64,000 nucleotides of DNA from Owenia fusiformis (taxonomy: Eukaryota > Annelida > Polychaeta > Sabellida > Oweniidae). A program made the translations under genes and the position numbers. The notes below the pieces were generated by a model. It did no database searches and was not told the origin of the DNA. It worked only from the letters and a program-made list of their open reading frames with translations. Position 1 is the stretch's first letter, and every line of letters starts with the position of its first letter. The stretch spans positions 34,992,867 to 35,056,866 of the forward strand of contig CAIIXF020000008.1 in assembly GCA_903813345.2 (NCBI GenBank), written 5' to 3'. Shown piece after piece: positions 10,901-16,900 of this stretch.

Positions 10901-13900
10901 TGGTATTGTTGTTTTTGTTTTTCAGCAAGTTAACACAAGTCCCGCTCATGAACCAGTGACCAATAACAGCAATAGTGATGTCATAGGGGAAGAGTTACAG
11001 AACAAAATTGAAGAAAATGCAAGACTTCATAAGCAAGTAAGCAAATAAAAGTTTTTATGGTTCCTTTATTTAAATACAAGTATAATTACAGTTACCAAGA
11101 TCGGGGCTTGAACTAATGGTTCATAATGCCAATTTACCCAGGTGCTCTCAGAACCTTAGCTCAACCCCTGACCACATCTTCGCATGCTCGGTCTTCACTG
11201 CGACTGATGGGAGCCGAGTGAACAAAGATGCCCTGACCAAGTATCAGAAAAAGTTCTCCTAAACGTCAATTTCCACAAGATTTATTGGATCAGTTTTAAG
11301 AAAATCTTTTTGAGTTTTGATAATTTTACAATTGAAAATCTGTCCAATAAAAGAAAATATCTGCCCCAGAGAAGAAGACTAAAATTAAACAGTTAAACAG
11401 TTTTTACTTGCATCTAGTATTGTATTGTATTTTGTTTACCACCAATGAAGGTGAGCAATACCTCTTGGGTATGTCCCGTATATATACGGTCGTAATTTAC
11501 GTAATTAACATGGAAGATAGACCCAGAAACCCCTCCTTGAAGGAGCCCTGTGTTCTTTTATGTGCACTTATACATAGACATATAAGTACACACCACAGCC
11601 TTTTTGTACGAGTTGCGGACCACTCAGTCAAACACCCTGAAGTACTTCACGCAAACAAGCAAATTTAGTCTTGCCTGAACCGGGGATAAGTCTATTTATG
11701 AGTCATCTGAGCTTTTGCCCATTTTTGAGCAAAATGAAAATAGAATTACAAATAATGAAATAAAAAATATATAAATGTAATTTTGTATACATTGAAGTAA
11801 AAGGATTTTATTTGAAGGTATATGAAGCTGAACAGAAACACAGTCAGACAGTATTCCAACTGCAAGACAGATTAGACGTACTAGAAAGGGAGAAAAATCA
11901 ACATGAGCAAATACTCAACAATGCAGTCTCAAAGAACAAAAACCAAATTGAGAAATTACAGAATGAAAAGGCCTTACTGGAGGTAAGTTGTTATTTCTAT
12001 GTTGTTATGTTGTAATTTCTATGTTGTTTTATTGTAATTTCTTTGTTGTGATTTGGGGGTGAATTAGAATTACCATCGCATGAGTTGAATTACCACTTAT
12101 TAAGAAATTACCCTCACATATTATAAAATTAACAGACAATTGTCGCCTTAAAAATTCTTGTTTCGTACAATTGCATTGTCAATAATAAAATTACCATTTT
12201 GGAAGATTACTGCCTCATACAATGGAATTACCAAATTAGAACAGAGAATTACCATTACAACATAATATTCTCTATCAATTATCGCATTGTCCAATAAAAT
12301 AACCGCCTTGAAAAATACATGTAGGTTTACCAATTCATATTCATAACCAATTCTCTTTTGGAAGTAATGGGTGGTCCTGAAAAGGACCGTGTATTTGGTT
12401 TGTCCTTGACAGGACGTTTGGCCCTGAAAAGGGCCATTTGGTGTTTCTGGTTGTTGTGTCTTCTACTCATGCATATCAACGTCATCATCTTCATCGCTGA
12501 TGATCTCATAATCCGAGTCATCATCATCAGTATTGGTGAAGATGGGCAATGTTTGAGCTTTGGCCTTGAGTTCCTCCACTTTGGCAGCCTGCATCATAGC
12601 ATACTCGTACATCATGCACTTCAGTCCCCTCATGGCCGACAAGTCCAGGCGGATCTTGTATCGGAAGGACTGTTTCCCTCTCTTGGCAGCACGATCATAA
12701 CGAACTTGCAACTGGCGGACCTTGTTGTCAATTAATAGCAGTTGGTCACATGACTTGGTGAACTTTCTGTACTTGATTTCAATCTCGTTCAGGATGAAAC
12801 CGTCATCAATGGGGATGCCATGTGTCTTCTCCAGTTCTGTGAAATTGTAGTATGTTGGTTGCTCTTGGGTGGTCTCCATTGTTGTGTTGGGTTAAGCTGT
12901 TGTTAGACTGAGATGTTCGCTGTGTGATAGAATACTTGAATAATGATTTCTCTCAGAATCATCTTTGTATTTATAGCAATTATTCCATGACATCTGTCAG
13001 GATGTCCAGTGTCAACACTTGCCAATATTCAGTTGACATTTTCCTGTCAAAAAATAAAATTCTGCAATGGCAGGAATTAAAGATAAAATCAAATGTATGC
13101 CACTACTAATCACCTTTAATCTCTCTAATTTACACCTTGGAAGGAATTAGAAATTCCAGTTTATTGAACCATTCAACATTCATATGCACCTAGCTGTTGT
13201 GTTTACTTAGAAACTTACATGCTAATAATGTCTACTGACTTGTATTACAGGTATTTTTTAACTTTGATTGAAATTTTGATTTATTACTCTAAGTAAGAAT
13301 GTAAATAAAGGTTATGGTGGATTATGTCTCTTGGGATTTATTAAAAATTATAATAGTCTCAGATAGACAAAGAAAACAAATATTTCCACACCTATTTCAA
13401 CTCTTAAATTGATAAATATTGCCTGCACTGTATATCATGCCCATGGGGAATACCTAAAAGAAAAATATTTAATAGTTTATTCTATGTTCGAGCATGGGCT
13501 TTCAATTCGATAAAAGTAAACAAAAAAGACCAATAAGGAAGAGGTATCAAAATGTTCTCTTCGAGTGTTGCATTGAAAGTAATTATTCAAGAACACACTC
13601 CAATAAAAATACAATTGAAAGCCCATGGTTCGAGCAATGAATAACTGTAGCAACTTCAAGCATTTTGTATTCTGTGAAATTAATTTTTTTTTTATCAAAC
13701 ATGAAATAATAACTGAAATTAATATTTGCTTTATTAAAGGCAAGGAAAGGAGGGAATTTGAAGTGAGCCTGAAGTGACCTATATATATCACTTCATAAGC
13801 CATTGAAAAAGAAAGTTAAACATATCAGGACCGTAGCCAGGGGGAGTTCGATGGGTTCGACCAAACCCCCATGACCAAAAAATCGTTCAAAATCATGCAG

Positions 13901-16900
13901 TTTTTCACCATTCTGAGCACTTTTTAAGTGATTTTGGCCATTTTTGGACCAAAATTGTCACAAGTGAACCCCCCCTGGAATTTTTCAAAAAGTGAACCCC
14001 CTTTGGCAAATCCTGGCTACGGGCCTGCATATAATAGTTTAATAACAACCCAACCTGGAATGTTTTCCATGGTCTAATCCAATTGAGCTTTTATGCAAAA
14101 ACAGTTATTTAGATGCAAACTTTATTAACTCTTTGCAGTCCAAGTCCAGGCCCGAAGCCAGCTTTTGCCAAGGGGGGTTCACTATCAGAAAAAGTCAGCC
14201 TAAATTTGGCCCAAAATCACATGAAAATGCTTAGAATCCAAAAAAAATGCATGATTTTGAAAGACTTTGAAAAAATGCAATCAAAGTTAAGAATATCTAT
14301 AATGCAACACTGTTGACATTAAGCAATGTCTAAGCAATATACAACAGCTAGGTGCTTATGAATGTTAAATGGTTCAATTAATTAAAATTTCTAGGATGTC
14401 AATTAAAGAGATTAAAAGTGATTAGTGGTGGCATACATTTGATCTTATCTTTGATATCTGTCATGTCAGAATTTATTTTTTGACAGGAAAATGTCAACTG
14501 AATATTGACAAGTGTTGACACTGGACATCCTGACAGATGTCATGGAATAATTGCTATAAATACGAAGATGTTTCAGAGAGAAATCATTATTCAAGTATTC
14601 TATCACACAGCGAACATCTCAGTCTAACAACAGCTTAACCCAATACAACAATGGAGTCCACTCAAGAGCATCCAACATACTACAATTTCACAGAACTGGA
14701 GAAGACACATGGCGTCCCCATTGATGACGATTTCATCCTCAACGAGATTGAAATCCAGTACAGAAAGTTCACCAAGTCATGTGACCAACTGCTATTGATT
14801 GACAACAAGGTTCGCCAGTTGCAAGTTCGTTATGATCGTGCTGCCAAGAGAGGGAAACAGTCCTTCCGATACAAGATCCGCCTGGACTTATCCGCCATGA
14901 GGGGACTGAAGTGCATGATGTACGAGTACGCCATGATGCAGGCTGCCAAAGTGGAGGAACTCAAGGCCAAAGCTCAAACATTGCCCATCTTCACCAATAC
15001 TGATGATGATGACTCGGAGTATGAGATCATCAGCGATGAAGATGATGACGTTGATATGCATGAGTAGAAGACACAACAACCAGAAACACCAAACGGCCCT
15101 TTTCAGGGTCAAACGTCCTATCAAGGACAAACTAAATAAACGGTCCTTTTCAGGACCATCCATTACTTCCAAAAGAGAATTGGTTATGAATAACTCATGA
15201 ATTGGTGATCCTTTCTTCTGAATGGTAATTTGATTGCATGAGGCAGCAATTTTATAAGTGGTAATTACTACCGTATGTTACAGTAAAGTAATTTCATTAT
15301 ATGAAATGTCAATTTCATAAAGAGGTAAATCTATTTTTGAGATGGTAATTCTATTGAGATTTTGTCATGTTGAGGTGTGTACATTAGGAATTTTTGCAAT
15401 TTTGAAAAGTAGACTATTGAATATTCTATTTATTCGAACATTCTGAAGAATTATCAACCCTCAATTAATAATCTAGGTACACTATAATGCACCTTTCATG
15501 CAAACAGGAAAGATGTACCCCATTTGTGGAATGAGTTATAAATGGTTATCTGAAGATATAACATGGTCATGAAATTTCATCAAATTAGAAAATGGCCGAA
15601 AGAACACACTGATCTTAATGCCTTCTTAATTAATTAAAGAAAATGAATAACATCAAATAATTTGTTGTTTATATCTATAGGTTCAACTTCAGAAGCAAGA
15701 TAAAGATGTCAAAGATGCCAAAACAAGGGCTGAGCAAGCGTAAGTCAAAATTCTGATTATTTTGGTCAAGCAAAATCATGGATTGGAATGTTTTTCTCTG
15801 AGGAATATACAAGTATTAATGTGAATCGCATTTATCACAGACAAACAAGAATGTGTAAGTGCCAGCATTTGTTGTTGTATTCACATTACATGTACTTGGA
15901 ACATTTGTACTCAGATGTAGGCCTGTATGCCGTATCCAGAGGGAATGGGGGCGGGTTTCGAGTGACGTTAGAAAGTAGTAAATGATGGTTGCAATTTTTT
16001 TATTGATAACATAATCATTTAAAAAGAATGAAATGAAAAGATCAATCCAGTGAATCATGGTTTTGATGCCATTCCTACCACTTCAGAGCAGAAATAGGAT
16101 CAACTTATTGTCAACTAAATCTCTCAAGCTTTAGAGCCCTTTAGATAAAGAGAGACTCTGATAAATCAGAATGATCAAATTTGTTCACAATTATTGCTGC
16201 CTGAAAAGTATGACATCATAATCTAGTCAATGTACCCTGGTTTCCTGGTTACCAAAAGGTTTGTTAAATTGAATAATGCCCTTATATTATACATGGCAGG
16301 CCTGTAACCTGATTTTGCCAATGGGGTTCACTATTCAACAAATTCCAGGGAGGTCACATTTGACCATTTTGGCCCAAAACCACTCAAAAAGTGCACAGAA
16401 TGGTGGAAAACTGTATGATTTTGAAATTCTTTTTAGCCAGGGTGGGGTTCACTCGTACACCCTGAACCCCCCTCCCCCTCCCTAACTACAGGCCTTTATA
16501 AGCAGTGTCCTTTATTGTTTCATTGATTGAAGGATTGCATTTTTTTACTTTCAGGGAGTCTGAGTTGCACAAAATACAAAATGAACTAACTTCAAAGTTG
16601 GATGAGGCTACAAAAGTAATTAAAGATAAAATAGCATTTAATGATACTAGTAAGTTAAAGTGTTGTGTTTGAAATAAATAAAACACGCTAAAATACGCTA
16701 AAACAATATGTAAAAAAGACAAACCATGCATATGTGATGTAGATAAAAGTGAAATTGAACAACTGATTAGTGATTAATTATGTTTAGATTCCACACAAAA
16801 TTGCATCTTCTTTGAGCTTGGTTATTGTATGTTTTTTGTTTTATTATTGAAACTTAAAAATAAAGTATTATAAATTAATGATATTTTTTGAAAATTAAAT

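Follow-up and report, generated by a model that had tools for sequence, protein, structure and literature searches.

The hairpin at the 3′ end of histone mRNAs follows the consensus GGYYYUHHUHARRRCC. In the pathway that relies on SLBP and the U7 small nuclear ribonucleoprotein (snRNP), expression follows S phase, and oocytes can store the mRNAs for use in cleavage. Histone mRNAs are described in a passage of one paper as the sole metazoan protein-coding mRNAs with a 3′ hairpin and no poly(A) (PMC12775136), and a passage of another states the same exclusivity for the core histones (PMC6303110). The histone genes of Oikopleura, as an excerpt of a third paper has it, combine the hairpin with a poly(A) signal and possess no histone downstream element (HDE) (PMC3156773). 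For the annelid Owenia fusiformis, excerpted text reports large histone clusters on chromosomes 5 and 8, together with one of four genes on chromosome 7, with the unit H4-H3-H2A-H2B, in which H2A lies on the opposite strand (PMC12153100). A literature search, which covered few subscription journals, returned no description of non-histone genes with histone-type ends in the titles and abstract openings of the papers listed. The present study concerns a stretch of 64,000 nucleotides of the O. fusiformis genome (assembly GCA_903813345.2, contig CAIIXF020000008.1, positions 34,992,867 to 35,056,866), here called the window, and in it an inverted pair of genes which encode a 138-residue protein and are followed by signals of the histone type. 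It is likely, judging from the sequence, that the pair belongs to a large annelid non-histone multigene family the transcripts of which receive their 3′ ends through the replication-dependent histone pathway.

The inverted gene pair and its family

The pair consists of two intact intronless genes of 138 amino acids (aa), each a single open reading frame (ORF) from ATG to stop. The preliminary description of the window had claimed an intact palindromic pair of 138-residue genes with a TATA box and no introns in either copy, and all of this was borne out by the two one-exon ORFs, the long complementary arms and a TATAAA at the same distance before each ATG (Table 1). The identity of the two coding sequences is 0.966 (dN 0.018, dS 0.106). 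The homology of the arms spans the promoter, the 5′ untranslated region (UTR), the coding sequence, the hairpins and the HDE. Directly beyond the processing signals the identity drops to 0.595 and 0.518.

Each stop codon is followed by a 6-bp hairpin, a 5-bp hairpin, the last 6-bp hairpin GGTCCTTTTCAGGACC, 13 nt, the sequence AAAAGAGA, and then TTATGAAT. The two hairpins that had been named at the outset exist, but there are actually three per copy, with the 5-bp one in between; likewise, AAAAGAGA was placed correctly at about 13 nt downstream in both copies, but it stands only after the last hairpin. The Rfam model RF00032 (Histone3, the histone 3′ UTR stem-loop; gathering score 34 bits) is passed in each copy by the last hairpin only. 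A further model, R1, was built from the histone 3′ ends of this genome only, 17 of H1 and four of core-histone genes, which make up 21 of the 25 ends; the four omitted ones are repeats or near-repeats of others. Over the 64 kb of the window, R1 gave 62.1 and 60.6 bits for the last hairpins (E about 1e-12 for both sites), 21.0 and 15.3 bits for the first hairpins, and at most 14.2 bits elsewhere. The hairpin string alone, with up to three mismatches, is expected 3.2 times per window, and its count proves little because four or more matches were reached in 35 of 100 shuffles; the four matches in the window are exactly the four 6-bp hairpins, three of them without mismatch. When the 3′ UTRs were folded, all three hairpins were kept in the plus copy (z −3.0); in the minus copy the centroid contains them, but the minimum-energy fold does not include the full set (z −3.8). 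The 3′ UTR of one relative, L042, folded no better than shuffles (z −1.3). The claim of a histone-type layout, comprising an SLBP hairpin and a predicted U7 target, is strongly supported, as the R1 signal recurs with covarying stems at 82 of the 84 family matches described next.

The genome that was searched comprises 498 Mb in 525 contigs, twelve of them large. The search for more copies, which had been proposed at the outset, gave 84 matches to the window protein (E up to 10). They are distributed over eight large contigs, for the most part as tandem clusters, and 75 of them are free of in-frame stops. At 79 of the 82 places outside the window, R1 found a same-strand signal of 24.4-67.9 bits at a distance of 9-145 nt past the protein match. 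Another place, L110, gave an R1 match of 54.4 bits once its flank was included. With the window pair counted, the signal is present downstream on the same strand at 82 of the 84 family places. The preliminary description had made its reading depend on the conservation of the stem-loops in other copies, and this number, together with the covarying stems, shows them to be conserved. Pairs were counted with a script that accepts only hairpins with at least five of six stem pairs plus an HDE, which 76 of 85 ORFs passed: pair 1 is G-C in 54, A-T in 17, A-C in four and G-T in one, and pair 3 is T-A in 59 and C-G in 17. In three L032 copies outside this set, pair 1 is T-A. As judged by these pairs, the family stems show compensatory (covarying) changes. 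The spacing between hairpin and HDE is 12-14 nt in 74 of the 76.

An earlier script for 3′ ends, which found the hairpin in 56 of the 85 ORFs, was superseded by R1. Under a looser script, which also leans towards pairing (at least five of six pairs), 78 of 85 ORFs have a hairpin with an HDE. In 57 of these 78 copies, against 2.8 expected, the motif ATGAAT is no more than 35 nt away from the HDE, and in 45 of those 57 it stands 9-10 nt after the HDE; this count replaces a first one that covered 27 of 85 copies. A TATA is present within 170 nt in 77 of the 85 ORFs, a count without a computed chance level. The dN/dS values of 13 chosen family pairs (0.07-0.37) indicate purifying selection on the coding sequences compared. 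A hidden Markov model (HMM) of the family identified L031 (E 7e-16), L036 (8e-10) and L088 (4e-11) as remote relatives and L072 as perhaps another one (E 8e-4); by the same HMM, no kinship to the window family was found for L060, L077 and L089.

We propose that an intronless pre-mRNA would be produced from each family gene and that SLBP would bind its last hairpin, where GGUCCUUUUCAGGACC is the predicted target. The U7 snRNP would pair with the HDE about 13 nt downstream of this hairpin. Cleavage between the hairpin and the HDE would then yield an mRNA with the hairpin, and no poly(A), at its end. Such processing by SLBP and U7 is suggested by the cis-module, by the lack of introns and by the SLBP gene of this genome, the RNA-binding domain of which scores 58.7 bits (cut-off 27). 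Expression would be coupled to S phase, oogenesis and cleavage, as it is for histones. The product might be needed in bulk during fast replication and division, perhaps as a factor that handles chromatin or histones or as a protein resembling a tubulin cofactor.

The coordinates of the pair and its signals are given in Table 1. The pair is flanked on both sides by coding stretches that resemble coiled coils and have splice-like borders (window 11818-11982 and about 15681-15739), so that it seems to lie within an intron of a different gene. Between the two genes (window 13879-14268), the spacer contains inverted repeats of 45-50 nt and resembles an insertion of a miniature inverted-repeat transposable element; part of it matches L084.

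Table 1. Positions of the two genes, their arms and their 3′ signals in the window
Feature	Position	Strand	Remarks
Left arm of inverted pair	12338-13058		97% complementary to right arm over 721 nt
ATGAAT element, copy 1	12339-12344	−	common to histone 3′ flanks
HDE (predicted U7 target), copy 1	12352-12359	−	AAAAGAGA
Last hairpin, copy 1	12373-12388	−	GGTCCTTTTCAGGACC, histone type; RF00032 35.0 bits; R1 62.1 bits at 12341-12393
Middle hairpin, copy 1	12402-12415	−	5 bp, 4-nt loop; in centroid, not in minimum-energy fold
First hairpin, copy 1	12420-12435	−	GGCCCTTTTCAGGGCC; without HDE of its own; RF00032 25.0 bits, below gathering score
ORF, copy 1	12463-12879	−	138 aa, one exon; two-helix hairpin (predicted) and acidic tail
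TATA box, copy 1	12970-12975	−	TATAAA, 96 nt before ATG
Right arm of inverted pair	14472-15192		homology ends just after ATGAAT element
TATA box, copy 2	14555-14560	+	TATAAA, 96 nt before ATG
ORF, copy 2	14651-15067	+	138 aa, one exon; 96% identical to copy 1
First hairpin, copy 2	15095-15110	+	GGCCCTTTTCAGGGTC; without HDE of its own; RF00032 21.3 bits, below gathering score
Middle hairpin, copy 2	15115-15128	+	5 bp, 4-nt loop; in minimum-energy fold
Last hairpin, copy 2	15142-15157	+	GGTCCTTTTCAGGACC, histone type; RF00032 35.9 bits; R1 60.6 bits at 15137-15189
HDE (predicted U7 target), copy 2	15171-15178	+	AAAAGAGA, 13 nt after last hairpin
ATGAAT element, copy 2	15186-15191	+	common to histone 3′ flanks

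Histone genes and other genes with the same 3′ signal

The core-histone genes of one repeat unit have the hairpin GGTCCTTCTCAGGACC with CAAAAGAGA, or CAAGGGAGA in the case of H4, and the H1 genes mostly have GGCCCTTTTCAGGGCC with CAAAAGAG. The string AAAAGAGA also stands after H1 and core genes. The signals in the window are thus the local dialect of the histone signal. The ATGAAT motif follows 17 of 20 H1 hairpins and all five core-histone ends examined, one of which repeats another; we know of no described role for this element. The motif TTCTCTRACGTCCGYG precedes 19 of the 20 H1 genes (L045-L058, L062, L063, L065, L070, L073, L083). In the H1 genes examined, it was seen just before the TATA region.

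Arrays of core-histone genes are located on C8 at 9.8 Mb, C11 at 19.7 Mb and C10 at 7.9 Mb. If the twelve large contigs follow the text order of chromosome names, these three would be chromosomes 5, 8 and 7, in agreement with the published positions of the Owenia clusters. Linkage of the family to such arrays, which had been suggested for checking, was looked for genome-wide and not found: the family clusters stand apart, and the smallest distance between a family place and an array is about 3.8 Mb. Single PF00125 matches lie closer, one (C10:14945944) at 0.42 Mb from a family place and one (C8:35967024) at 0.96 Mb from the window pair.

The signal is also present at genes unrelated to the family. 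A strict pattern, CTTTTCAGGRCC-N6-18-AAAGAG, which does not cover the core histones (loop TCTC), occurs 90 times in the genome, and the reversed pattern 0 times. By coordinates, 13 of these sites belong to H1, 50 to the window family with its remote relatives, while 27 lie elsewhere, the last group including an ORF-less repeat and sites known by coordinates alone. RF00032 has at least 74 sites in the genome, a lower bound with 75 of 98,227 first-look candidates scored; 25 are in family clusters, five beside PF00125 matches, 40 were examined and four are similar. None of the 40 sites is close to a known family copy or a PF00125 match; half of them (20) are H1 and the other 20 non-H1. All 20 non-H1 sites score with R1 (30.1-65.3 bits), and at 11 of them an ORF of at least about 50 aa ends shortly before the signal. 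Five further sites of the strict pattern score with R1 as well (43.3-56.2 bits).

The ORFs before these signals are of several kinds. The ORF L061 (C3:1551225-1552350) encodes a mariner-type transposase (DDE_3, E 4.9e-18) and has the full signal after its stop codon (47.2 bits); its broken or partial relatives L076, L082 and L084 carry the signal with 49.7, 48.9 and 30.1 bits. GDSL/SGNH-like ORFs precede the signal at L059 (C12:29026420-29027550; E 5.4e-8, above cut-off) and at L079 (C1:55258340-55259465; below cut-off). By eye, the tail of a GDSL/SGNH-like ORF was also seen before the signal at L064, the DNA of which is shared by L078. Small cysteine-rich RING-like proteins are encoded before the signal at L077 and L081 (C10) and L090 (C4). 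They have 92-100 aa, or 61 aa in L090, and 12 matching stretches exist in the genome. Small orphan proteins of helical appearance with the same 3′ end were seen at L072, L074, L075, L060 and L089. L074 has four matches in the genome, L072 among them. A dispersed repeat (L066-L069, L071) was likewise seen to carry the signal, with extra hairpins in some copies. No long ORF was found in about 1 kb of this repeat, and none of at least 60 aa in a further 5 kb at its C9 copy; it is possibly a non-coding transcript or repeat.

We consider it rather probable that the histone mRNA 3′ pathway serves in this animal as a general regulon, with mRNAs that are processed by SLBP and U7, free of poly(A) and tied to replication or the early embryo. 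It would comprise at least four unrelated kinds of genes, namely the helical-hairpin superfamily, the cysteine-rich RING-like proteins, the SGNH-like hydrolases and the mariner-type transposase, plus further orphan proteins. A viral origin was rejected within IMG/VR by pattern, R1 and protein searches. There, the pattern of hairpin plus HDE occurred in 19 stretches, all of which lack a complete stem before CTTTT, the R1 search gave a single match of 15.7 bits, and no relative of the window protein was found.

The encoded protein

In Pfam, the window proteins matched nothing above cut-off, and matches to Rhamnogal_lyase (E 0.013 and 0.025, below cut-off) were taken as noise. The AlphaFold2 model, calculated from an alignment of 32 sequences, is a two-helix hairpin with helices at 26-67 and 70-108 and disordered ends (block pLDDT 90-98 over residues 31-100, pTM 0.61). 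The charge of the basic core is +9 in the window proteins (family median +4) and that of the acidic tail −13 (family median −10.5; −4 or lower in 63 of 74). The helical basic middle and acidic tail of the preliminary description were thereby recovered. In the 32 aligned rows, Q46 and A64 are invariant and R60, R63, Y74, L78, Y93 and A94 nearly so. That the protein is not a histone held as far as tested: Pfam searches with 32 members gave no histone family at E up to 0.1, and the model is a two-helix hairpin. When the family HMM was run against 16 proteins and their shuffles, H1, H3 and H2B were outside the 25 best rows.

A remote homology search, also proposed earlier, gave a trace of tubulin binding cofactor A (TBCA) below cut-off but no family above it. 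A profile search of PDB sequences returned the coiled coil of BAP31 alone (E 7.6e-5), and a single member searched against the same sequences returned only a ribosomal protein at E 0.14. Foldseek found nothing in PDB and BFVD at E up to 0.001. PHROGs (searched with five proteins) and NCBIfam (four proteins) together gave one match, at E 0.09. VIA-align aligned the model with Z 9-10 to many unrelated hairpins, such as the LSD1 tower, prefoldin, Rad50 and PspA, values which the tool flags as common for helical folds.

Pfam TBCA (PF02970) matched 12 of 32 members, and in a rescan of ten members it matched nine with at most 23.6 bits against a cut-off of 30.3. Genome-wide, 38 TBCA matches were obtained at E up to 1. 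Three are true TBCA stretches that exceed the cut-off; the remaining 35 are nearly full length and fall without exception in the C3, C6 and C12 clusters of this family, the best of the family reaching 23.6 of 30.3 bits (E 0.022). TBCA did not match the window proteins themselves at E up to 10. Conversely, the TBCA of this genome reached 2.1 bits with the family HMM, far below the best of 1000 of its shuffles (11.8), and in a phmmer search with TBCA the family members rank among shuffles. Plant TBCA (3mxz) can be superposed on the model over 89 residues at 1.9 Å with Z 9.2, tied with many unrelated hairpins. The TBCA locus examined has no histone-type 3′ end. A distant kinship of the family to TBCA is possible but unproven. 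The charge pattern, a basic helical core and an acidic tail, and the predicted co-regulation with histones lend weak support to a putative chromatin or histone factor; the TBCA trace makes a tubulin-cofactor-like product an equal lead.

Alternative explanations and comparison with histone genes

Several results weigh against the proposal that the family transcripts are finished by the histone pathway. The U7 small nuclear RNA (snRNA) was not identified: the best match to RF00066, with 24.2 bits, fails to reach the cut-off and has an unfitting sequence, and a base-pairing pattern for U7 gave two candidates compared with seven in the reversed control. L112 and L113 were read as U7 candidates, and neither is credible. 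The motif TTCTCTRACGTCCGYG is present within 400 nt upstream in 0 of 85 family ORFs, and because of this absence the promoter control of the family is probably not that of H1. The first hairpins of both window copies stay under the RF00032 cut-off (21.3 and 25.0 bits). The pair counts lean towards pairing, because the script itself demands it along with an HDE. An in-frame stop was found in nine of the 84 matches, so some family copies have decayed. At two of the 84 places, L038 (C6:24490414) and L043 (C1:29302177), the R1 signal is absent. A tree of 39 chosen rows with long branches did not decide whether these two lost the signal or never had it; they are possible polyadenylated, replication-independent counterparts. 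Finally, poly(A) hexamers occur in the next 150 nt at the level of chance (32 of 78 copies, 28.9 expected). As they are neither enriched nor depleted, back-up polyadenylation may take place.

An alternative explanation is that both ends are used, with an SLBP-bound hairpin and bulk mRNA polyadenylated downstream, as reported for the Oikopleura histone genes. The hexamers in 32 of 78 copies, at chance level, and the Oikopleura precedent, which an excerpt of PMC3156773 provides, speak for it. We nevertheless consider it quite unlikely, since here the HDE stands at a fixed distance, unlike in Oikopleura, and the homology of the window pair ends right after the processing module. It could also be supposed that the histone 3′ end is cargo spread by transposons or repeats; the family would then be, or descend from, a selfish element that takes advantage of expression in S phase and of an mRNA free of poly(A). 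The signal is indeed carried by the mariner-type transposase with its relatives and by the dispersed repeat without long ORFs, and the family copies are spread over eight large contigs. These copies are mostly in tandem clusters, however, with purifying selection on the coding sequence between old copies, and the inverted arms are gene copies and not short terminal repeats. No transposase was recognised in the proteins of the window pair, and target-site duplications were not searched for. We judge a mobile origin unlikely, and the earlier suggestion of a mobile gene using the histone pathway is unsupported for this mostly tandem family, though the transposase genes with the same end raise it again.

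That the family is a divergent H1 or core histone, changed beyond recognition with its ancestral 3′ end kept, appears highly improbable. Its 3′ module is the same as in the H1 and core genes of this genome, and many copies without introns are typical of histones as well. Set against this are the absence of histone Pfam families for 32 members at E up to 0.1, the ranks of H1, H3 and H2B outside the 25 best rows of the family HMM, the two-helix hairpin model and the missing H1 promoter motif.

If this proposal is true in RNA, about 80 non-histone gene copies with the full module would form a large exception to the histone-only rule. As a natural experiment, they would bear on the question of why the pathway has remained limited to histones, and they could tell which genes can join it, how a non-histone protein benefits from replication coupling and how new clients originate. 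In practical terms, RNA-seq with poly(A) selection would miss such genes. The proposal is directly testable in Owenia, for which a published genome, embryos and RNA time courses are mentioned in a passage of PMC12153100.

The closest known system is formed by the replication-dependent histone genes of the same genome, which the family resembles in being intronless and multicopy and in having a TATA box, the hairpin, the HDE AAAAGAGA and the downstream ATGAAT. It differs from them in its product, which is not a histone, in the lack of the H1 promoter motif and in the position of its clusters away from the core-histone arrays. Its hairpin loop is mostly TTTC, whereas the core genes have TCTC, and A-T and T-A occur as variants of the first stem pair. 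Three hairpins in a row are a further peculiarity of the window group. Compared with RF00032, the last hairpins of the window copies are above and the first hairpins below the gathering score, and the host genes are non-histone. Compared with TBCA, the plant fold overlays and the 35 family matches are nearly full length, but all 35 are below the Pfam cut-off. Replication-independent histone variants are polyadenylated, single and often contain introns. L038 and L043 are single and without the signal, and the family could be split in a like manner into replication-dependent and replication-independent members.

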